Under the pieces are notes generated by a model, which was not told where the DNA came from, ran no database searches, and saw nothing but the letters and a program-made list of their open reading frames with translations. From positions 154,882 through 218,881 of the forward strand of contig JAURMR010000035.1 in NCBI GenBank assembly GCA_030830565.1: DNA of 64,000 bases. Direction: 5' to 3'. The translations under genes and the position numbers were made by a program. This stretch comes from Acidimicrobiales bacterium (GTDB lineage: Bacteria > Actinomycetota > Acidimicrobiia > Acidimicrobiales > Acidimicrobilacustridaceae). Each line of letters starts with the position of its first letter. The stretch's first letter is position 1. Positions 51,179 through 63,937 of this stretch are shown here, piece by piece.

Positions 51179-52234
51179 ATGTCCAGCCCGGATCGCACTC
51201 GTCTCGTCGTCTTGTTCGGCGGCCAATCTGCTGAACACGACGTTTCTCGGGTGACTGCTCGACACGTCCTAGCCGCCGCCGACCCAAACCGCTATGACCT
51301 TGTTGCTATCGGCATCACTCGCGACGGCGAATGGGTGGAGTGCTCAAGCGACGTCTCCTCATTTGGCGACGCCCTGGAGATCGCCGGCGACAAAGTGGAC
51401 CCGTTCTCGGCGCTTACCGCCGGCTCGGTCGTCTTCCCACTGCTTCACGGACCCATGGGCGAAGACGGAACGCTCCAGGGCCTGCTTGAACTTGCCGGCG
51501 TTCCCTTTGTTGGCTCAGCAGTCCTCGGCTCGTCAGTATCGATGGACAAGATCATCGCCAAGCGTCTTGCAGACGCTGAAGGAATCGCGCAAACCAAATG
51601 GCGCGGCATGCACGCCGCCGAACTTACAGGTCCTGCGAGCGAGGCCGTACTTGATGGTCTCGCCGACGAACTTGGGTTCCCGATGTTCGTGAAGCCTGCA
51701 AACATGGGTTCCTCAATCGGCGTTTCAAGGGTGAACGAACGCGGGCAATTGCGCGCAGCAATCGACGATGCGCTTCGATACGACGAATGGCTCGTTCTTG
51801 AAGAGGGCGTTGTGGCTCGCGAGATCGAAGTAGCCGTTTTAGGCCACACGGTCTCACCGCGAGCTTCGGTGCCGGGCGAAATCGTCCCCGGCGCAGATTT
51901 CTACGACTACGAAGACAAATACACCGACGGCGTGGCGCAACTTCATATACCCGCACCACTTTCAGAAGCCGAAGCCGCTCAAGTGCGCGAACTCGCATGC
52001 CGAGTCTTTCGGGCGTACCGCGCCGAGGGCTTGTCTCGCGTTGATTTCTTCTTTGAGAACCCGGGTCGTGGTTGGTTGCTCAATGAAATCAACACGATTC
52101 CGGGTTTCACTCCGATTTCGATGTACCCGCAGATGTGGCAAGCAAGCGGCCTCCCTTACCGAACCCTCATCGACGAACTCGTTGGCCTGGCAATTGAGCG
52201 CCATGCCACCGTTTCTCGCTACCGCAACGCCTGA
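51179..52234 (+). CDS. ddl: D-alanine--D-alanine ligase
   Basis: VVLFGGQSAEHDVSRVTARHVL; FPLLHGPMGEDGTLQGLLELAGVPFVGSAVLGSSVSMDK; FVKPANMGSSIGVSRV; LLNEINTIPGFTPISMYP. Confidence 0.95.
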   Translation: MSSPDRTRLVVLFGGQSAEHDVSRVTARHVLAAADPNRYDLVAIGITRDGEWVECSSDVSSFGDALEIAGDKVDPFSALTAGSVVFPLLHGPMGEDGTLQGLLELAGVPFVGSAVLGSSVSMDKIIAKRLADAEGIAQTKWRGMHAAELTGPASEAVLDGLADELGFPMFVKPANMGSSIGVSRVNERGQLRAAIDDALRYDEWLVLEEGVVAREIEVAVLGHTVSPRASVPGEIVPGADFYDYEDKYTDGVAQLHIPAPLSEAEAAQVRELACRVFRAYRAEGLSRVDFFFENPGRGWLLNEINTIPGFTPISMYPQMWQASGLPYRTLIDELVGLAIERHATVSRYRNA

Positions 52235-52887
52235 GATCTGGCGAAGTCCGGCGCAACCATCGCCGCATAGAGAAACGACAAGAGTTCGCGTCGGCGCACA
52301 ACCGTGCTTCGCAACGTTGGTGCAATGCCAACAGCACGCAACACTTCAACTTCCGTTGCCGTGCCAAGCACCGTCGAGTAGGCCGACACCAGCAACAAGC
52401 CTGGATCGCATCGACGAATGCGACCAGCGTCCATCTCGCGTTCGAAATACGCAGTAGCTCTCGAAACGAATGGTTCGAGATCAGCAGTGACGCGAAGGGA
52501 CGCGTCGCCACCAATTCGACTGATTTCGCGAATGAAGCCCAGGAGTTCAGGCCGACGCATTGCAACGCGAAAGATCCGCCGCACAATCGACTCGACTCGG
52601 CTCCAACCCGAACCATCTTCAGAGAGTGCTCCGTCGAATTCAATGATGAGCTCGAGAGCCGCCCGATCGATGACGGCATCAAGAAGGGCTCGCTTTGAGG
52701 ACCAGTGATAGAGGATCGCCTGTTTCGTAATTCCAAGATCGGCCGCCAAATCATCAAGCGAGACCGAATCGAACCCCTTCGTGCCGAACGATTCGAGGGC
52801 CACAGCCAGAATTCGATCCTCGGTGGCCCGTGTGCGAGCAGCTCGGGATCCCTTGGGAGGACTGGTCATAGCAAGGGCCATGACCAA
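52219..52887 (-). CDS. TetR-family regulator divergent to the acyl-reductase operon
   Basis: RILAVALESFGTKGFDSVSLDDLAADLGITKQAILYHWSSKRALLDAVID; several possible starts; last 16 bp overlap the convergent ddl 3' end. Confidence 0.9.
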   Translation of the reverse strand: MVMALAMTSPPKGSRAARTRATEDRILAVALESFGTKGFDSVSLDDLAADLGITKQAILYHWSSKRALLDAVIDRAALELIIEFDGALSEDGSGWSRVESIVRRIFRVAMRRPELLGFIREISRIGGDASLRVTADLEPFVSRATAYFEREMDAGRIRRCDPGLLLVSAYSTVLGTATEVEVLRAVGIAPTLRSTVVRRRELLSFLYAAMVAPDFARSQALR

Positions 52888-52903: not shown

Positions 52904-52917
52904 TTACCAAGTGGTAA
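52904..52917. promoter_or_regulatory. probable TetR operator, perfect inverted repeat
   Basis: TTACCAAGTGGTAA in the 34-bp divergent gap between the TetR gene and 52922. Confidence 0.65.
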
Positions 52918-52921
52918 ACAT

Positions 52922-55285
52922 TTGCCCGTGATTCGTGACGCACTGGCCGGCAAACGGCTGTTCATCACCGGCACCACCGGTTTCCTTGGCACCAACCTCC
53001 TTGAGCGACTCCTCCGCTCGGTGCCCGATTGCGACATCGTGCTGCTGGTACGTCCCGGCCGACGCTCCACCGTTGAACAGCGCGTGTCGCGAGAAATCCT
53101 GAAGAACGACGCGTTTGATCGCTTGCGCGCCGAACTCGGCAAAGACGGATTCGCGGAAATGACTGCCCGCCGCATCACGTCAGTAGCCGGAGACGTTGGT
53201 CGCGACGGTCTTGGTCTCGACGAAGCGGGCAGAGCCGTTCTCGCCTCCTGCGACATCATCATCCACTCGGCAGCAACGGTGAGCTTCGATTCGCCGCTGG
53301 ACTCCGCAGTTGAAGTCAACCTTCTTGGCCCAACGCGCATTGCGGCGGTGTGTAACGAACTCGGGATAACCCCACATCTCGTTGCCGTTTCCACCTGCTA
53401 CGTCGCTGGCAACCACCGCGGCGCTGCTCCCGAACAACTTGTCGATGAAAGTCATTTCTTCATCGACGTCGACTGGCGCGCTGAAGTTGAAGGCGCACGC
53501 CGTGCACGTCGCGATGCTGAAGCCGAAAGCCGTACACCCGAGAAGCTTGCCGAATTCCGTTCGCAAGCGAATCGTGAACTTGGTGCCGCTGGCACTCCCC
53601 TCCTTGCTGAGAAGACCGAACAACTTCGTGACCGTTGGGTCTCCGATCGCATGGTGGAAACTGGGCGGGCTCGTGCCGCATCACTTGGTTGGCCCGACGC
53701 GTACGCCTACACAAAGGCTCTCGGTGAACGAGCGCTTGTCGAAACTCACGGCGATGTTCCCGTCAGCATCGTGCGACCATCAATCATCGAGTCGGCACTC
53801 GCTGAACCCGTTCCAGGTTGGATCCGCGGCTTCCGCATGGCAGAGCCGATCATCATCAGTTACGCACGCGGACTTCTTAAAGAATTCCCCGGTGTTCCCG
53901 AAGGCGTCGTCGACGTCATTCCCGTTGACCTTGTTTCTGCGGCGATCATCGCCGTGGCCGCGAAAGGACCGGAACCCGAACCCGAGGTTGTGCAGGTCGC
54001 ATCGGGCTCACAGAACCCGCTGCACTACCGCCGTTTGGTGAATCTCGTAAGCGCATGGTTCCAACAGCGCCCGCTGTATGACACCAAAGGCCAACCCATC
54101 ATCGTCCCGACTTGGTCCTTCCCCGGCCGCGGTCGCGTCAAAGGCCAACTTGAACGAGCAACGAAAACGCTGGGCCGCGCCGAAAGCATCCTTGGTGCAC
54201 TCCCCTTGCGCGGCAAGCAAGCCGAATGGGGTGCAGCGGTTGAAGAAAAGCGCGAAGAAGCCGAGCGCGCGCTCGGCTATGTCGAGATTTATGGCGCGTA
54301 TGCCGAATGCGAAGCCATTTACGGACTCGATCGCTTGCTTGCACTTTGGGACAACCAGACACCCGAAGATCAGCGCGACTTTTGCTTCGACCCACGGGTT
54401 ATTGAATGGGACGAGTTCGTTAACGAAATCCATTTGCCATCGGTTGTAAAGGCAGCACGAGTTCGGACAACGCCGGGCGGCAAGATCGGCCCGACCCGAG
54501 CCGATCGCTTGCGTGGCCAGATTCTCGCCCCCGAACGCCAACTCGCTGCGTTCGATCTTGAGAACACGCTCATCGCCTCAAACGTGGTCGCCAGTTACGC
54601 GTTCCTCGCAACTCGACGCATGCCCGCCGACCAACGGCTTCGCTTCATCGGCAAGATGATCGCCGAGGGGCCCAAGCTGCTTTCGCTTGACCGCAAAGAC
54701 CGCACCGACTTCCTTCGGTTCTTTTACCGCCGATACGACGGTGCGCCGTTGCAGCAGATCGAAGAGGACTCGGCCGAGATGTTTAGCCGACTGATTCTTT
54801 CGAAGTCGTTCCCCGAAGCGATTCGTCGAGTGAGGGAACACAAAGCTGCTGGACATCGCACCGTTCTCATCACCGGAGCGCTCAGCTTTGTTGTGAAGCC
54901 GCTCACTCCTCTTTTCGACGACATCATCGCCGCCGAAATGAGTGTGACAAACGGTCGCTACGACGGAGAACTTCGAAATGTTCCGCCCACAGGTGAAACG
55001 CGAGCACAGGTGTTACGTGACTACGCCACCTCTCACGGTTTGAGCCTGAGTGAAACGGTCGCCTATGCCGACAGCACTTCCGATCTTCCGATGCTCGAGG
55101 CTGTTGGATTCCCCGTAGCGGTGAACCCTGAAACTCGTCTCGCCACTCTTGCCCGCAAGCGCGGCTGGTTGGTGGAGAACTTCTCGAAGGCTCCAGGTTC
55201 CCCGCGTCGACTCATCCCAATTGGACCGCGGCGCACCGCAAACGGCGGCCTCGCCAATCCGCTTGTTCCTGGAGGCACGGCATGA
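52922..55285 (+). CDS. fatty acyl-CoA reductase (SDR, NAD_binding_4) fused to HAD-IB hydrolase
   Basis: LFITGTTGFLGTNLLERLLRSVPDCDIVLLVRPGRR; HSAATVSFDSPLDSAVEVNLLG; YAYTKALGERAL; C-terminal HAD: AAFDLENTLIASNVVASYAFL...VLITGALSFVVKPL...AYADSTSDLPMLEAVGFPVAVNP. Confidence 0.93.
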   Translation: MPVIRDALAGKRLFITGTTGFLGTNLLERLLRSVPDCDIVLLVRPGRRSTVEQRVSREILKNDAFDRLRAELGKDGFAEMTARRITSVAGDVGRDGLGLDEAGRAVLASCDIIIHSAATVSFDSPLDSAVEVNLLGPTRIAAVCNELGITPHLVAVSTCYVAGNHRGAAPEQLVDESHFFIDVDWRAEVEGARRARRDAEAESRTPEKLAEFRSQANRELGAAGTPLLAEKTEQLRDRWVSDRMVETGRARAASLGWPDAYAYTKALGERALVETHGDVPVSIVRPSIIESALAEPVPGWIRGFRMAEPIIISYARGLLKEFPGVPEGVVDVIPVDLVSAAIIAVAAKGPEPEPEVVQVASGSQNPLHYRRLVNLVSAWFQQRPLYDTKGQPIIVPTWSFPGRGRVKGQLERATKTLGRAESILGALPLRGKQAEWGAAVEEKREEAERALGYVEIYGAYAECEAIYGLDRLLALWDNQTPEDQRDFCFDPRVIEWDEFVNEIHLPSVVKAARVRTTPGGKIGPTRADRLRGQILAPERQLAAFDLENTLIASNVVASYAFLATRRMPADQRLRFIGKMIAEGPKLLSLDRKDRTDFLRFFYRRYDGAPLQQIEEDSAEMFSRLILSKSFPEAIRRVREHKAAGHRTVLITGALSFVVKPLTPLFDDIIAAEMSVTNGRYDGELRNVPPTGETRAQVLRDYATSHGLSLSETVAYADSTSDLPMLEAVGFPVAVNPETRLATLARKRGWLVENFSKAPGSPRRLIPIGPRRTANGGLANPLVPGGTA

Positions 55286-56499
55286 AAGCCCTCCGCTTCG
55301 AACGCAACATTCCCCGCTTTGCTGCAGCAAACCTTGCTGGTCGTCTGAGCTCGGGCGGTGGCGCCAAAGTTGGCCCGCTTCGCCTGCGCAGTGTCGACAC
55401 ACCTGCGCTTCCTGGTCCCGGTTGGGTCGAGATCCTTCCGCGCCTCACAGGTATCTGTGGCTCTGACCTCGCAACAATCGATGGAAACAGCTCCCGCTAT
55501 TTCGAACCGATCGTTTCGTTCCCGTTCATTCCGGGCCATGAAATCGTTGCGGACCTCGCTCATGAATTCGAAGGCGTTCCCGCCGGACGTGTCGTGGTCG
55601 AACCAGTGCTCGGTTGTGTCACCCGAGGCATCGACCCGGCTTGTGCCGCGTGTTGTCGCGGCGATCTTGGCAACTGTGAACGCATCACGTTCGGAAACAT
55701 CAGCCCGGGCCTGCAGAGTGGCTTCTGCTGCGATACCGGCGGCGGTTGGTCAACAAGCATGATCGCTCACGCCAGTCAGCTCCATGCAGTGCCCGCCGAT
55801 TGGTCTGACGAAGCTGCAGTCATCGTCGAACCCACCGCATGTGCAGTGCACGGTGCACTCGCTGCCGATGTTGCTGAAGATGACACCGTGGTCGTGCTTG
55901 GCTCTGGCGCACTCGGGCTTCTCACGATCGCTGCGCTTCGCCGATTCGGCCGCAAGTGCACGATCGTGGCTGTCGCCAAGCATCCGCACCAGCAGGAACT
56001 CGCACGTGAATTCGGGGCCGATCACGTCATCGCTTCAGAGCACATTGCTCGACCGATTCGTCGCATCACGGGCTCTCTTGCAATTGGTGATGGCGACATT
56101 GTTCGTCTCACTGGCGGTGCTGATCACGTCATCGATTGTGTCGGCAGCGAAAGCAGCATTGCCGAAGCGCTCACCGTTGTTCGCCCGAAGGGCCGCATCA
56201 CGATGGTCGGAATGCCCGGCCACGTGCATGTCGATCTGACCGGGTTGTGGCAACGAGAAATCACCATGAGCGGTGCATACGCCTACGGAACTGAAACGCT
56301 TCCGAATGGTGAACGCCGCCGCACCTTTGATCTTGCCTTTGAACTTGTTGCCGCAGCCGACCTCGGTCGACTTGTTAGCGCGACCTATCCCCTTGACCGC
56401 TTCGAAGATGCAATCACGCACGCTGCGAATGCCGGCGGTCGTGGAGCAGTTCGTATCGCCTTTGACCTTCGCAATGAAAAGGAACGGAATCGTGCCTAG
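55282..56499 (+). CDS. Zn-binding alcohol dehydrogenase (MDR)
   Basis: ILPRLTGICGSDLATIDGNSS; FIPGHEIVADL; VVLGSGALGLLTIAAL; start overlaps the upstream stop (ATGA). Confidence 0.92.
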   Translation: MKALRFERNIPRFAAANLAGRLSSGGGAKVGPLRLRSVDTPALPGPGWVEILPRLTGICGSDLATIDGNSSRYFEPIVSFPFIPGHEIVADLAHEFEGVPAGRVVVEPVLGCVTRGIDPACAACCRGDLGNCERITFGNISPGLQSGFCCDTGGGWSTSMIAHASQLHAVPADWSDEAAVIVEPTACAVHGALAADVAEDDTVVVLGSGALGLLTIAALRRFGRKCTIVAVAKHPHQQELAREFGADHVIASEHIARPIRRITGSLAIGDGDIVRLTGGADHVIDCVGSESSIAEALTVVRPKGRITMVGMPGHVHVDLTGLWQREITMSGAYAYGTETLPNGERRRTFDLAFELVAAADLGRLVSATYPLDRFEDAITHAANAGGRGAVRIAFDLRNEKERNRA

Positions 56500-58087
56500 A
56501 CCAGGATTCGTCCTCGACGTCGATCGCTCGACGCCACCAATTCTCTTCCACCACGGAGAGGGTTTCCGGCTCGAACGGCTTCCCGCCGGACGCAGCCGCG
56601 TCATTTATCCGGCAGAGCCCATCGAGGCACTCAAGAACCCGGACGGCGCGATTCGCGACGCACTCGACAACCCGATCGGCGATAGCGAGCCATTGCGCGC
56701 GCTTCTCAAACCGGGCATGAAGCTCACGATCGCATTCGACGATATTTCGTTGCCGCTTCCCCCCATGAAGCGCCCCGACATCCGTCAGCGCGTCATCGAA
56801 GCAGTCCTTGAACTCGCAGCAGCGGCTGGAGTCGACGACGTCATGCTCATCGCGGCTCTGGCATTGCACCGCCGCATGACTGAAGATGAACTTCGCCATG
56901 CCGTTGGCGATCGTGTCTATGACGCATTCGCACCGCATGGTCTCCTCGTCAACCACGATGCTGAAGATCCCGACAACCTTCTCTTTATCGGCGAGACCGA
57001 AAAGGGTGAAGAGGTCGAAATCAATAGACGTGCTGCTGAGAGCGACCTCATCATTTACGTCAACATCAATCTCGTCTCGATGGACGGTGGCTGGAAGTCG
57101 ACCGCAACCGGTCTTGCGTCGTACCGATCACTTCGTCACCACCACAACCCGCAGACGATGCGACATTCGAAGTCGTTCATGGACCAGCACAAGTCCGAAC
57201 TTCATTCGGCCAACTGGCGAATGGGCAAGGTGCTTCGCGATTCGGGGGTGAAGGTCTTCCAGATCGAAACCACCATGAACAACAACGTGTTCGGTACCGA
57301 AGGCCCAATGAGTGTGCTGCAAAAGCGTGAATGGGAGTGGTCATTGAAAGACCGCATCACCATGGCGGGCATGAAGTCGGCCCTCGATCGCATGCCGCAA
57401 CGCACTCGTCGTTCAATTTTCAACTCCTGGCAGGCACCGCACGCGATGACCTCAGTGCAGGCCGGTGAAGTTGAGGCCGTCCACAAGCTCACCACCGAGA
57501 ATGTCTACGCACAGCATCTCGTGCCCGTCGAAGGCCAAACCGACATACTCACGATGGGACTGCCCTACATCAGCCCCTACAACGTGAATTCGATTCTGAA
57601 TCCGATTCTCGTTGCGTGTCTCGGTCTCGGGTACTTCTTCAATCTGTACCGCGGCCGTCCGCCGGTTCGTGAAGGTGGCGTGGTCATCATGAGCCACCCA
57701 ACACCATGGGAATTCCACCCAGTGCATCACCCGTCGTACATCGACTTCTTCGATCAGGTGCTTTCGCAAACTCACGACCCGGTCGTGATGTCCGAACAGT
57801 TCGAAAAGTCTTTTGCCGAAGACGAGTGGTACCGACACCTGTACCGCACGAGCTACGCCTATCACGGCGTTCACCCGTTTTACATGTGGTACTGGTGCTC
57901 ACACGCGCTTGAACATGTCGGCCAAGTCATCATCGTCGGTGGCGATGTGCGCGCCGTTCGTCGTCTCGGCTTCAAGCCCGCCTCAACATTGCAGGACGCA
58001 CTTGAGATGGCCAGCGACGTGGTTGGCCGCGATGCAACGATCACGCATCTGCACAATCCGCCCATCCTCATGGCCGACGTTTCCTGA
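56492..58087 (+). CDS. LarA-N/DUF2088-like (lactate-racemase-family) protein with extended C-terminus
   Basis: LLKPGMKLTIAFDDISLPLPPMKRPDIRQRVIEAVLELAAAAGVDDVMLIAALALHRRMTEDELRHAVGDRVYDAF; VNHDAEDPDNLLFIGETEKGEEVEINRRAAESDLIIYVNIN; GTG start, 8-bp overlap with ADH. Confidence 0.75.
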   Translation: MPRPGFVLDVDRSTPPILFHHGEGFRLERLPAGRSRVIYPAEPIEALKNPDGAIRDALDNPIGDSEPLRALLKPGMKLTIAFDDISLPLPPMKRPDIRQRVIEAVLELAAAAGVDDVMLIAALALHRRMTEDELRHAVGDRVYDAFAPHGLLVNHDAEDPDNLLFIGETEKGEEVEINRRAAESDLIIYVNINLVSMDGGWKSTATGLASYRSLRHHHNPQTMRHSKSFMDQHKSELHSANWRMGKVLRDSGVKVFQIETTMNNNVFGTEGPMSVLQKREWEWSLKDRITMAGMKSALDRMPQRTRRSIFNSWQAPHAMTSVQAGEVEAVHKLTTENVYAQHLVPVEGQTDILTMGLPYISPYNVNSILNPILVACLGLGYFFNLYRGRPPVREGGVVIMSHPTPWEFHPVHHPSYIDFFDQVLSQTHDPVVMSEQFEKSFAEDEWYRHLYRTSYAYHGVHPFYMWYWCSHALEHVGQVIIVGGDVRAVRRLGFKPASTLQDALEMASDVVGRDATITHLHNPPILMADVS

Positions 58088-58095
58088 GGCCTGCC

Positions 58096-59076
58096 ATGCG
58101 TCCGATGCCCATCACTCGCAAACAGGCAACTCGCCTCATCAAGCGCCTTCCCGTGAATCGTTCGGTGTCCACTGCGGCCAAAACGAGTTCTCGTGTCACG
58201 CGCATGGCGAAGGCCATCGTCAAGGCACCATCCGTGCCCGCAGGTGTTGAGCTCCTGAAAAAGGAAAACAACATCGGCGCCAACTACGACACCGATTGGG
58301 CACGTTCGTACCCGGCTCGAGTCGCACGCGTTCTGATTCTTAACGGTGTCATGAAGCCCGTCGTCGATCTCCTCGCATCACCAACCATTCAGGGCGCTGA
58401 TCGCTTGTCCGATGTTGATGGCCCAGTGATTTTCGCTGCGAACCATCACAGTCATGCCGATACACCGTTGATGATGACCGCGATTCCCGAACCGTGGCGC
58501 AATCGCCTCTTCATTGGTGCAGCTGCCGACTACTGGTTCACCAACCGAGTGACCTCGCCACTTTCGGCACTCGTCATCGGGGCGATTCCCGTTGAACGAA
58601 CGAAGGTGTCGCGCAAAGCGATTGATCAGTCGCTTGAGTTACTCCGTGACGACTGGAGCATGCTCATTTTCCCCGAAGGTGCTCGCTCTCCTGATGGTTG
58701 GGCTCGCCCATTTACTTCGGGTGCCGCTTTTCTTTCTTCCCATAGCGGTGCTCCGGTTGTTCCTGTGTTCATTCAAGGCACGAACAAGGTCTTACCGAAG
58801 GGAAAGAACGTTCCTCGTCCAGCGCACACCACGGTCGTATTTGGTTCGCCAATGCATGCAGCCGAAGGCGAAGACTCCAAAACTTTTGCCGCTCGCATTC
58901 AAGCTGCAGTTGCTGCGCTTGGCGACGAATCGGCAACCGACTGGTGGCAAGCGCGACGCAATGCCGCCTCGGCATCGACCCCAACGCTTGATGGACCCGA
59001 TGCTGGTGCATGGCGCCGGTCATGGGCGCGCACGTCGAAGGCCAAAGGCCAACGTCGTTCTTGGCCTCGGATCTGA
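58096..59076 (+). CDS. PlsC-type 1-acylglycerol-phosphate acyltransferase-like protein
   Basis: HX4D motif FAANHHSHADTPL; FPEGARSPDGWARPF; GAPVVPVFIQG. Confidence 0.92.
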   Translation: MRPMPITRKQATRLIKRLPVNRSVSTAAKTSSRVTRMAKAIVKAPSVPAGVELLKKENNIGANYDTDWARSYPARVARVLILNGVMKPVVDLLASPTIQGADRLSDVDGPVIFAANHHSHADTPLMMTAIPEPWRNRLFIGAAADYWFTNRVTSPLSALVIGAIPVERTKVSRKAIDQSLELLRDDWSMLIFPEGARSPDGWARPFTSGAAFLSSHSGAPVVPVFIQGTNKVLPKGKNVPRPAHTTVVFGSPMHAAEGEDSKTFAARIQAAVAALGDESATDWWQARRNAASASTPTLDGPDAGAWRRSWARTSKAKGQRRSWPRI

Positions 59077-59103: not shown

Positions 59104-60522
59104 TTAACGAGCGAATGTGATGGGAATGCGAATGTTCGCTTCCTCATCTTGCAGCGACGCATCGTTCACGATCACAACGCAATCGTTGTGATCGGCATCA
59201 CAGAAACCGTTCCCAACTTTTCCGACAACGATTTCGAGTTCCAGCGAACCCGAACCAGTGGGATCGTCATTGAGAACTTTTCCCGTCACGAGGTCGCAGG
59301 ACGAAGTGCCCCCAAGCCCTCCACCTGAGCACTGAACTGCAGTGACAACGCGCCCGGGAAGGAAACCACTCCACTGGACTCGAACGCTCTGACCGCTTCG
59401 TAATTGCATCGAGGGTGTGACCGTGGCGGTTCTCGACGGCATCGTCGGAAGCGTTGGATTAATCACCACCGATTGATCTGGGCCGGCAACGAACGTCATT
59501 TTCGCAACTCCGGGCTTTTCATCGCCGGCAAGCGCAGCAATTGCGGTGGGATCGGACTTCACATAGCCGTTGAAGAAATCCAGCGTTGTTTTCGCCGTGA
59601 TCGGAAATACTTTGGAATCACTAAAGAGATACGAATTGTGATCTGAGTCGATCAGAGTGAACAGTCCCTTTGGCGAACGGGCATTCATAAAGAGGCGAAC
59701 ACCCTCATCAAACGGGATCGTCTTGTCGTCCTCGCCGTGAACAATCAAGAGCGGTGGCGTACGTGACCAATCGAATGTCGTGCCCGGTAGAAGCTGTGAG
59801 GTTCCCGCAATGATGATCGCTGCATCGACTCGGTCGTCGATGCAGCACGATCGACCAATCAAGCCCGCGACCGTGATTCCTCCATTTGAATGTCCGGCAA
59901 CGCCAATTCGTTCCGCATCGACCATTCCCGCAAGCGCACGACCTTCCGCACTCGACGACAACTCGATGGCGCGCGTAATCACCGCAGAAATGTCACCCGA
60001 TTGATTTGCGACATCACCAGCGTCGGGAACGCCGGGTGAATCCTCGTTACTCAGAGGAAATGCAGGCGCGGCCACGACATACCCAGCAGCAGCCCACGTC
60101 GAAAGCAGATCCCCGTATTGCGCAGGGGTTGCTCCCAACCCGTGCCCGAAAACAATGAGCGGAAACGGGCCTGAACCGGTGGCTGGCGGCGCATCGAACT
60201 GCGGTGTCGGATCGGGAATCGATGCGAAATCGTCGTCGCGGACAGATTCAAGCGACGGAGAAACGGCGGGATACCAAATTCGCACTTGCATCGTTCGAGA
60301 CGGAGAACCCGGTTGCGCAGCAGTCACAGGCGTCGGGCGAGTCGGATCATCGACGGTGAATGAACTGATGCCCACAGGGAAGACCGTGCGTTGTTCAACC
60401 GAAGAATCTCCGCCCGCCGCCTTCGAACTCGATGACGAACACGCCGAAAGAAGTGTCAACGGCAAACAAACGACGAGGGCGAGCGCCACTACTCCCTTCG
60501 GAATTTCACGCAAACGCCGCAC
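59104..60522 (-). CDS. lipoprotein alpha/beta-hydrolase (dienelactone/PAF-AH-like) with C-terminal neocarzinostatin-like domain
   Basis: Lipobox LLSACSSSS; FPLIVFGHGLGATPAQYGDLLSTWAAAGY; nucleophile GVAGHSNGGITVAG; IVHGEDDKTIPF; DSDHNSYLF; C-terminus TATVTPSMQLRSGQSVRVQWSGFLPGRVVTAVQC...CDADHNDCVVIVNDA. Confidence 0.85.
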   Translation of the reverse strand: MRRLREIPKGVVALALVVCLPLTLLSACSSSSSKAAGGDSSVEQRTVFPVGISSFTVDDPTRPTPVTAAQPGSPSRTMQVRIWYPAVSPSLESVRDDDFASIPDPTPQFDAPPATGSGPFPLIVFGHGLGATPAQYGDLLSTWAAAGYVVAAPAFPLSNEDSPGVPDAGDVANQSGDISAVITRAIELSSSAEGRALAGMVDAERIGVAGHSNGGITVAGLIGRSCCIDDRVDAAIIIAGTSQLLPGTTFDWSRTPPLLIVHGEDDKTIPFDEGVRLFMNARSPKGLFTLIDSDHNSYLFSDSKVFPITAKTTLDFFNGYVKSDPTAIAALAGDEKPGVAKMTFVAGPDQSVVINPTLPTMPSRTATVTPSMQLRSGQSVRVQWSGFLPGRVVTAVQCSGGGLGGTSSCDLVTGKVLNDDPTGSGSLELEIVVGKVGNGFCDADHNDCVVIVNDASLQDEEANIRIPITFAR

Positions 60523-61660: not shown

Positions 61661-63937
61661 ATGGCTGTTGCTGCCAATACCCCCATCGAATTGATCAACG
61701 GCGTCTACGGCCGTCTTGCCGAGAACGTTGCCATCGGCCGCGAGCGTCTTGGGCGCCCGCTCACCTTCGCCGAGAAGGTGCTCATCAATCACTTGCGCGA
61801 CCCTCGCACTCAGGAACTTGAACGCGGCCGCAGCTACGCCGATCTCGACCCCGATCGAGTTGCCATGCAGGACGCCACCGCCCAGATGGCCTTGCTTCAG
61901 TTCATGACCGCAGGCCTTCCCGAAGCAGCTGTGCCATCGACTGTGCATTGTGACCATCTCATTCAGGCCAAGAGCAACGCCCGTATCGATCTTGCGACCG
62001 CAAACGATGTCAATGCCGAGGTCTACGACTTTCTTGAGTCTGTCTCCGCCAAATACGGCATCGGTTTCTGGAAGCCAGGCTCCGGCATCATCCATCAGGT
62101 CGTGCTCGAGCAATACGCGTTCCCGGGCGGAATGATGATCGGCACCGATAGCCACACCCCGAATGCTGGTGGCCTCGGCATGATCGCCATCGGTGTTGGC
62201 GGCGCCGACGCCGTCGACGTTATGACCGGCTATCCGTTCAACGTTCGTTGGCCAAAGCTCATCGGCGTGAAGCTCACCGGCACCCTTGCTGGTTGGTCGG
62301 CACCGAAGGACATCATCCTTGAAGTCGCGCGCATCCTCACCGTGAAGGGTGGCACCGGCGCCATCGTTGAGTACTTCGGACCCGGCGCAGAATCCATCTC
62401 GTGCACCGGCAAGGCAACCATCTGCAACATGGGTGCAGAAATTGGTGCAACCACCTCGCTGTTCGCCTATGACCCGGCGATGTCGCGTTACCTCGCTTCC
62501 ACCGGCCGTTCCGATGTTGCCGCCGCTGCCGACGCGGTTGCTGGCGATCTTCGTGCCGACGATGAAGTTCTCGCCGATCCAGCGTCGTACTTCGACGAGG
62601 TCATCGAGATCGACCTTTCCGCGCTTAAGCCACTCATCAATGGTCCGCATACTCCTGACCGCGCCCGCAAGGTCAGCGAACTCGGTGCAGAAGCAAAGGC
62701 CGAAGGTTGGCCGATGGAAATTTCCTCAGCGCTCATCGGTTCGTGCACGAACTCCTCGTACGAAGACATCAGTCGTGCCGCTGCAATCGCACGCTTCGCG
62801 CATGAAAACGGACTCAGCGCAAAGACTCCATTGCTTGTCACCCCAGGTTCAGAGCAGGTGCGCGCCACCATCGAACGCGACGGACTCCTCGCCGACCTCG
62901 AGCAGATCGGCGCAACCGTTCTCGCAAACGCATGTGGTCCGTGTATCGGCCAGTGGTCGCGCAGCGATGTCGAAGAAGGTATCGACAACATCATCGTTAC
63001 CTCCTACAACCGCAACTTCCCGAAGCGCAACGATGGCCTTGCTTCAACGCTTGCATTCGTGACCTCGCCGGAAACAGTTGTGGCGATGGCTCTTGCTGGT
63101 CGTGTCGACTTTGATCCAACTGTTGATTCACTCACCAATGCTTCAGGCGAGCAGGTCACCATTCCTGTTCCCACTGGTGTTGAACTCCCCCCCAAGGGTT
63201 TCACCGCCGGCGAAAACACGTTCATCGCTCCTCCCGCCGACTCTTCAAAGGTTGTCGTCAAGGTTTCGCCGACCTCTGATCGACTTCAACTTCTTGAACC
63301 GTTCGACGCATGGGATGGCAAGGACTTCCTCAACCTTCCGATTCTCATGAAGGCCAAGGGCAAGTGCACCACCGACCACATTTCTGCTGCTGGCCCGTGG
63401 CTCAAGTACCGCGGCCACCTCGAAAACATCTCCGGCAACATGTTCATCGGTGCGGTGAATGCGTTTACCGATGAAATCGGTCAGGGCAAAGATCAACTCG
63501 ACGGCACGACCAAGTCGTTCCCCGATATCGGCAAGCACTACCACGAGGCCGGCCAAGGTTGGATCGCCATCGGCGACGAGAATTACGGCGAAGGTTCCTC
63601 ACGTGAACACGCAGCGATGGAACCTCGTTTCCGTGGCGCCAAGGTGGTCCTCACTCGTTCGTTTGCTCGCATTCACGAGACGAACCTGAAGAAGCAGGGC
63701 GTTCTGCCACTCGTCTTTGCCGATCCGAAGGTCTACGACCTCATCGAACAAGACGACCGCATCAACGTGCTCGGACTCGCCAACCTCACACCCGATGTTC
63801 CGGTCAAGTGTCAGATTGTGAAGCCCGATGGCACCACCATCGACTTCGAAGGCATCCAGACAATGAACGATGAGCAGATCGGTTGGTTCAAAGCCGGCGG
63901 CGCGCTCAACATCATTCGTCAACGCCAAGGCGTCTGA
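61661..63937 (+). CDS. aconitate hydratase (mitochondrial-type)
   Basis: [99 protein letters not shown]. Confidence 0.96.

Follow-up and report, generated by a model that had tools for sequence, protein, structure and literature searches.

In the peroxisome-type pathway, ether lipids are built by FAR1, GNPAT, AGPS, alkyl-dihydroxyacetone phosphate reductase, and AGPAT. In Myxococcus xanthus, the elb operon encodes ElbA to ElbE, with a fatty acyl-CoA reductase (FAR), acyl-CoA synthetase (ACS), acyl carrier protein (ACP), and acyltransferase combined in ElbD, and with ElbB as a HAD protein (PMC9131029). The anaerobic ester-to-ether reductases Ger/PlsA yield alkyl or alkenyl ethers. Here we describe an operon found in a 64,000-nucleotide stretch of contig JAURMR010000035.1 (Acidimicrobiales bacterium, assembly GCA_030830565.1); this whole stretch is called the window below. 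The operon encodes a FAR fused to a HAD-type domain (FAR-HAD), a Zn-dependent alcohol dehydrogenase (ADH), a LarA-like protein, and a PlsC-type acyltransferase. Comparative sequence analysis suggests that operons of this kind probably make membrane lipids with ether linkages through an undescribed route. We favor, with reasonable though not high confidence, 1-O-alkyl (ether-linked) glycerolipids as the product, with LarA, along with ADH, doing the job that AGPS does along with a short-chain dehydrogenase/reductase (SDR). The alkyl-ether pathway is well supported by genomic context; LarA is its putative ether-forming catalyst. The genes are as follows.

52928 to 55285, plus strand: FAR-HAD fusion (PF07993, 1.4e-59; PF12710, 1.1e-30; TIGR01490)
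55282 to 56499, plus strand: Zn-dependent dehydrogenase (ADH) of the medium-chain dehydrogenase/reductase (MDR) type (PF08240, PF00107)
56492 to 58087, plus strand: LarAH14/15/16-family nickel-pincer-nucleotide (NPN) enzyme (NF052592, 889 bits; PF09861)
58096 to 59076, plus strand: PlsC-type 1-acyl-sn-glycerol-3-phosphate acyltransferase (PF01553, 1.4e-19)

The ADH gene starts at 55282 within the end of FAR-HAD at 55285 (an ATGA overlap), the GTG start of LarA (56492) makes an 8-bp overlap with the ADH end (56499), and the ATG start of PlsC (58096) follows the LarA end (58087) after an 8-bp gap. The original prediction, made from the letters of the window, had listed four co-directional, tightly spaced open reading frames (ORFs), and all were found in place with the overlaps and the gap it gave; domain profiles also agreed with the families it had named (FAR with HAD, MDR ADH, DUF2088/LarA, PlsC, and a divergent TetR). 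For FAR-HAD, the conserved start is GTG at 52928, while TTG at 52922, which opens a longer ORF, is not conserved. The longest ORF of LarA opens at 56273; homology was seen only from 56492.

Compared with the peroxisome-type pathway, the logic of FAR, acyltransferase, and dehydrogenase is alike, and sister operons (see below) hold FAR-HAD, SDR, PlsC, and a true AGPS. The window operon, however, has LarA and the Zn-dependent MDR dehydrogenase where AGPS and SDR stand. The elb operon, an aerobic ether-lipid locus, resembles it in combining FAR, HAD, and acyltransferase functions (PMC9131029). Still, the FAR of the window is fused to HAD, whereas the FAR of ElbD is fused to ACS, ACP, and acyltransferase; domain profile searches detected no ACS or ACP domain, and the NAD-epimerase ElbA/E was not found in the window operon. 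Conversely, no elb counterpart of LarA or of the Zn-dependent ADH has been reported, ElbC being described only as of unknown function. The Ger/PlsA reductases would give the same product class with unrelated proteins, and their marker PF09989 was present in 0 of 18 operon-bearing genomes.

The evidence for an exchange between LarA and AGPS came from 168 FAR-HAD neighborhoods in all; a search of 375 genomes of the Streptomyces class yielded 73 FAR-HADs, and sampling throughout was limited to Actinomycetota. LarA was present in 143 neighborhoods, AGPS in 22, neither in three, and both in none; that is, an AGPS gene was seen in 0 of 143 LarA-type operons. ADH occurred in 103 of the 143 LarA-type loci compared to none of the 22 AGPS-type loci, while SDR occurred in all 22 AGPS-type loci compared to a single LarA-type locus. 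The AGPS partner matched the AGPS structure 2uuu (1.6e-114), and the HHH[GA]VG signature was found in 22 of 22. The first AGPS-type locus was on a Streptomyces replicon (L215), where a FAR-HAD homolog stands beside PlsC and a bona fide AGPS; LarA and ADH were not found at that locus, which came from a plasmid search for FAR-HAD; a search of plasmids for LarA produced weak, unrelated LarAs only. The separation extended to genomes searched whole. None of the AGPS-typed genomes had a LarAH14/15/16 protein over the cut-off (the curated 740 bits of NF052592), whereas the LarA-typed genomes did, except for one contig-split and one divergent copy. Family f86 contains loci of both types.

In the FAR-HAD tree, the AGPS type makes one clade nested, with strong SH-aLRT support, within the LarA type, and this nesting points to replacement. 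As shown by the comparison of loci, LarA and ADH appear to have been replaced once by AGPS and SDR, with the FAR-HAD/PlsC setting otherwise kept. As a separate observation, a FAR-HAD gene in a complete genome (G535; L257, 8004-10217, minus strand) had neither LarA nor AGPS; its neighbors resemble His_biosynth (histidine biosynthesis) and NeuB.

Gene maps were compared for 80 loci of named Acidimicrobiia relatives and, made by tblastn, for 40 additional loci spread over many families of the phylum. Gene order and strand recurred in more than 20 families, with identity as low as ~52% for LarA and ~40% for FAR-HAD, and the median gaps for FAR-HAD/ADH, ADH/LarA, and LarA/PlsC were -4, -0.5, and 1 bp. 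Because the same order and strand were kept in so many families with such tight spacings, the operon is not a product of chance. The window LarA was 98-99% identical to that of the nearest named relatives (Acidimicrobiia/Microthrixaceae metagenome-assembled genomes, MAGs), and Acidimicrobium ferrooxidans also carries the operon. Among the 80 Acidimicrobiia loci, FAR-HAD was present in 73, PlsC downstream of LarA in 78, and ADH in 38. The 40 further loci had the order FAR-HAD, ADH, LarA, PlsC wherever LarA exceeded the cut-off; an adjacent PlsC match was not found in those of Rubrobacteraceae (family f24). Since ADH is absent from many loci while the other three genes persist, the core of the operon is FAR-HAD, LarA, and PlsC, and ADH is a frequent fourth member, the least constant one. 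Therefore, the adjacency on which the original prediction depended was clearly conserved in other actinobacteria, and of its four-gene unit three genes stood as the core and ADH did not everywhere.

The same 297 genomes of the phylum were scanned for both proteins. LarAH14/15/16 over the cut-off was detected in 72 genomes, FAR-HAD in 76, and both in 70 (Fisher p=4e-58); a partial LarA match was present in three of the six genomes with FAR-HAD only. Acidimicrobiia-type operons were also seen in two records (L036, L059) that bear the titles Bifidobacterium breve and Acidobacteria bacterium; these are probably mislabeled or contaminated MAGs.

The window LarA matched NF052592 ("LarAH14/15/16") over profile positions 1-519 of 520; this is a named but orphan (uncharacterized) LarA group. 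Residues H126, K202, and H218 (H108, K184, and H200 of LarA) are conserved, and the equivalent of D72 is kept too. In 115 aligned sequences of the subgroup, the NPN-anchoring K202 and the Ni-ligand H218 were kept in practically all, while the second catalytic histidine (H174 site) was absent in 115 of 115. The site of R75, a residue that in LarA makes the cofactor/carboxylate contact (PMC7583248, PMC12611868), was occupied by leucine (108), isoleucine (6), or cysteine (1), and in no sequence by a basic residue. The predicted structure (AlphaFold2, AF2; mean confidence, pLDDT, 92.7) had its best fold match in 9q3k (target TM 0.85), and both sequence and fold placed the protein nearest, among solved ones, to the single-His LarAs 9q2u, 9q3k, and 9q3j. 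The single-His LarAs of Blautia/Streptococcus have been linked to carbohydrate genes, and their carboxylate site retains a lysine (PMC12611868). The operon LarA shares with them the LarA fold, the NPN residues, and the missing second histidine; their carboxylate-site lysine, however, is replaced by Leu/Ile/Cys. Frankia LarAH14, with the same fold, NPN residues, and missing histidine, showed no activity in any of seven hydroxy-acid assays (PMC7583248).

Because the H174 histidine and R75 are lost and Frankia LarAH14 was inactive in those assays, this LarA probably acts on something other than a usual 2-hydroxy acid. For the same two losses, the "hydroxy-acid handling" proposed in the original prediction lost ground. 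The LarAH15 that has gluconate 2-epimerase activity (PMC11770544) comes from Phytophthora and is named by a different numbering; it did not enter the evidence.

The cofactor-holding residues are kept, and most genomes with this LarA also encode LarC; on these grounds the operon LarA likely uses the nickel-pincer cofactor. The window's own genome has LarC (3.6e-129) and LarE (6.9e-87), LarC was present in 63 of the 72 LarA-positive genomes, and in three genomes of family f22 a LarE gene directly follows PlsC on the same strand. Seven genomes (G264, G295, G107, G161, G085, G182, G214) had LarAH14/15/16 and no LarC or strong LarE. The idea that K184/H200 were lost where LarC/LarE are missing was rejected, as the cofactor residues are retained in these genomes; gaps in the assemblies or a different source of the cofactor would explain the missing genes.

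In FAR-HAD, residues ~1-510 make the predicted alcohol-forming fatty acyl-CoA reductase part and residues ~540-740 the HAD-IB phosphatase-like domain (AF2 pLDDT 88.9). Over its whole length, the FAR part had its closest solved structure in 7eoz, a fatty acyl-CoA reductase (profile E 1.2e-102). The homologs keep the TGxxGFLG, YxxxK, and HAD motifs, and family membership suggests a fatty alcohol as the product. HAD motif I, however, is D-x-E (FDLENTL) instead of D-x-D in most FAR-HAD homologs, a change known from the phosphotransferase-like ThrH; the domain may be a phosphatase or a phosphotransferase. In ADH, the Zn-ligand motifs GICGSDL and PGHE are conserved, and a glycerol-C2 ketone/alcohol redox role is proposed for it. 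PlsC, with the nearest solved relative 5kym (4.1e-11), has conserved HX4D and FPEG motifs.

With these assignments, FAR-HAD would convert acyl-CoA to a fatty alcohol, PlsY/PlsC-type enzymes would acylate the glycerol-phosphate backbone, and LarA with the Zn-dependent dehydrogenase, in place of AGPS with the ketone-reducing SDR, would join the fatty alcohol to glycerol C1; PlsC would act last, adding the sn-2 acyl chain. The nickel-pincer cofactor would accept a hydride from the C2 carbinol of glycerol, with the single histidine as the base. With a ketone at C2, the fatty alcohol could take the place of the acyloxy group at C1, as it does in the AGPS reaction. The ketone would then be reduced again, by the dehydrogenase or, on the same face, by the hydride that the cofactor had stored. 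This chemistry needs no inversion, and the second histidine would therefore be dispensable. The lone histidine and the lost carboxylate arginine would thus fit, as a hypothesis, hydride borrowing on the glycerol C2 alcohol without inversion. If so, LarAH14/15/16 would be an ether synthase that achieves the AGPS reaction in a second way, with an unrelated protein, and would be the first member of the LarA family not to act on 2-hydroxy acids; we hold this specific proposal tentatively, the odds being somewhat against it. Literature searches brought up no paper that connects LarA/DUF2088 to ether lipids or to FAR.

Rubrobacteraceae are of particular interest here. A 2023 study (Sinninghe Damste et al., cited in PMC11150832) reportedly found mixed ether/ester lipids to be dominant in five Rubrobacterales species. 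It reportedly also mentions a 1-O-alkylglycerol-phosphate operon, called putative and in need of study, but is not known to give LarA a role or to describe the AGPS swap. That operon belongs to the same organism family as the loci seen here and may be the plsY-FAR-HAD-ADH-LarA locus. In this family, the glycerol-3-phosphate acyltransferase gene plsY (PF02660) is located directly upstream of FAR-HAD, heading the operon. Moreover, a CarF/PEDS1-type Lipid_desat protein was present in 11 of 26 f24 genomes compared to 1 of 271 others; the known substrate of the CarF desaturase is an alkyl ether lipid (PMC9131029). Five f24 genomes were tested for AGPS-signature proteins and for Ger/PlsA, and neither was found. 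Two side observations were made: in three loci of Rubrobacteraceae (L154:6804-7394, L134:11413-12069, L164:5222-5809) a protoglobin gene separates ADH from LarA, and a genome of family f51 without FAR-HAD or LarAH14/15/16 has a CarF-type Lipid_desat (G130:C68:3197-3664).

Several observations weigh against the favored explanation. The swap was probably one evolutionary event, and the 22 AGPS loci are therefore not independent. ADH is missing from 40 of the 143 LarA loci. Nine LarA-positive genomes had no detectable LarC and seven of the nine also had no strong LarE, several of these genomes being incomplete. Finally, operon-bearing genomes of the window's own family encode a distant AGPS-like flavoprotein elsewhere (L183:1450-2955; the C35:109580-110278 region in the own genome), so an ether synthase may act in trans there.

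The last point leads to the alternative that the operon makes ether lipids with the ether bond formed by an enzyme encoded elsewhere, e.g., the own AGPS-like flavoprotein, and with LarA in a supporting isomerization or redox role on the glycerol backbone or head group. The own FAD protein carries a SHHHGIG motif, has AGPS 2uuu as its best PDB match (7.5e-48), and recurs within the family in copies of 63-85% identity; to the sister operons' true AGPS its identity is only ~29%. Proteins with HHHG[IV]G were detected in seven genomes (G000, G103, G285, G135, G006, G227, G290). However, no such protein was found in operon-bearing Rubrobacter (five genomes), A. ferrooxidans (G081), G031, G114, and others, and LarA and AGPS exclude each other within the operon. 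We therefore consider this explanation unlikely.

Another alternative is that the two operon types turn one and the same fatty alcohol into different lipids, the AGPS type an alkyl ether and the LarA type, for example, a 1,2-diol or a hydroxy-acid-containing lipid. Every characterized LarA enzyme uses 2-hydroxy acids (PMC7583248, PMC11770544), and mutual exclusion by itself is no proof of a shared product; on the other hand, every LarA member has lost the carboxylate-binding arginine and the second histidine, and LarA-type Rubrobacter has the CarF-type desaturases, which makes this alternative quite improbable. A wax-ester or storage-lipid operon, in which PlsC would esterify the fatty alcohol and LarA would be incidental, follows the minimal wax-ester logic of FAR plus acyltransferase, but we give it very little credence given the glycerol-phosphate substrates of the PlsC- and, in Rubrobacter, PlsY-type acyltransferases and the near inseparability of LarA and FAR-HAD. 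Thus, the uncharacterized lipid operon of the original prediction is supported, and of the unusual lipids it suggested the alkyl ether is favored by the AGPS swap and the Rubrobacter, PlsY, and CarF links, while the wax ester and the diol gained no support.

The exchange of LarA for AGPS joins two questions, the origin of ether lipids in aerobes without AGPS, Ger/PlsA, or ElbD and the role of orphan single-His LarAs, both testable with four genes. If the proposed function is true, a nickel-cofactor enzyme would be added to membrane-lipid synthesis, the known chemistry of the nickel-pincer cofactor would become wider, and a gene marker would be available for alkyl-ether lipids across Actinomycetota, including freshwater and marine Acidimicrobiia.

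Upstream of the operon are its putative regulatory elements.

52219 to 52887, minus strand: TetR-family regulator (PF00440, 6.5e-14), divergent; the true start is perhaps a few codons inside
52905 to 52916, no strand: probable TetR operator, perfect dyad TACCA-AG-TGGTA, directly before FAR-HAD

From the position and conservation of the dyad we infer that TetR binds it, and the local TetR would control the operon through this one operator. Of 91 FAR-HAD genes, 53 had the pattern TACCA-N2-TGGTA in the 200 bp before them, with fixed arms and a variable center; all loci together (2.19 Mb) held only 57 copies. The longer form TTACCAAGTGGTAR, with at most one mismatch, occurred a single time in the own genome. 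A divergent TetR was present in 51 of the 80 Acidimicrobiia loci. In several other families a looser dyad, TACCR-N2-YGGTA, lies upstream of FAR-HAD, and some of them have a TetR homolog (34-39% identity) placed after PlsC, an arrangement seen in several families.

The window has a GC content of 58% and belongs to a genome bin of 2.0 Mb that is 71% complete. Among the neighbors, an aconitase gene downstream (61661-63937) was rejected as a pathway member because its position varies among loci, and the MurF/Ddl neighbors were taken as inherited synteny. The gene at 59104-60522 (minus strand) encodes an alpha/beta-hydrolase-like protein with a C-terminal neocarzinostatin/enediyne-chromoprotein-like stretch (PF00960, 2.9e-4; NF040680, 1.5e-11; both below cut-off) and adjoins the operon in the closest relatives only.

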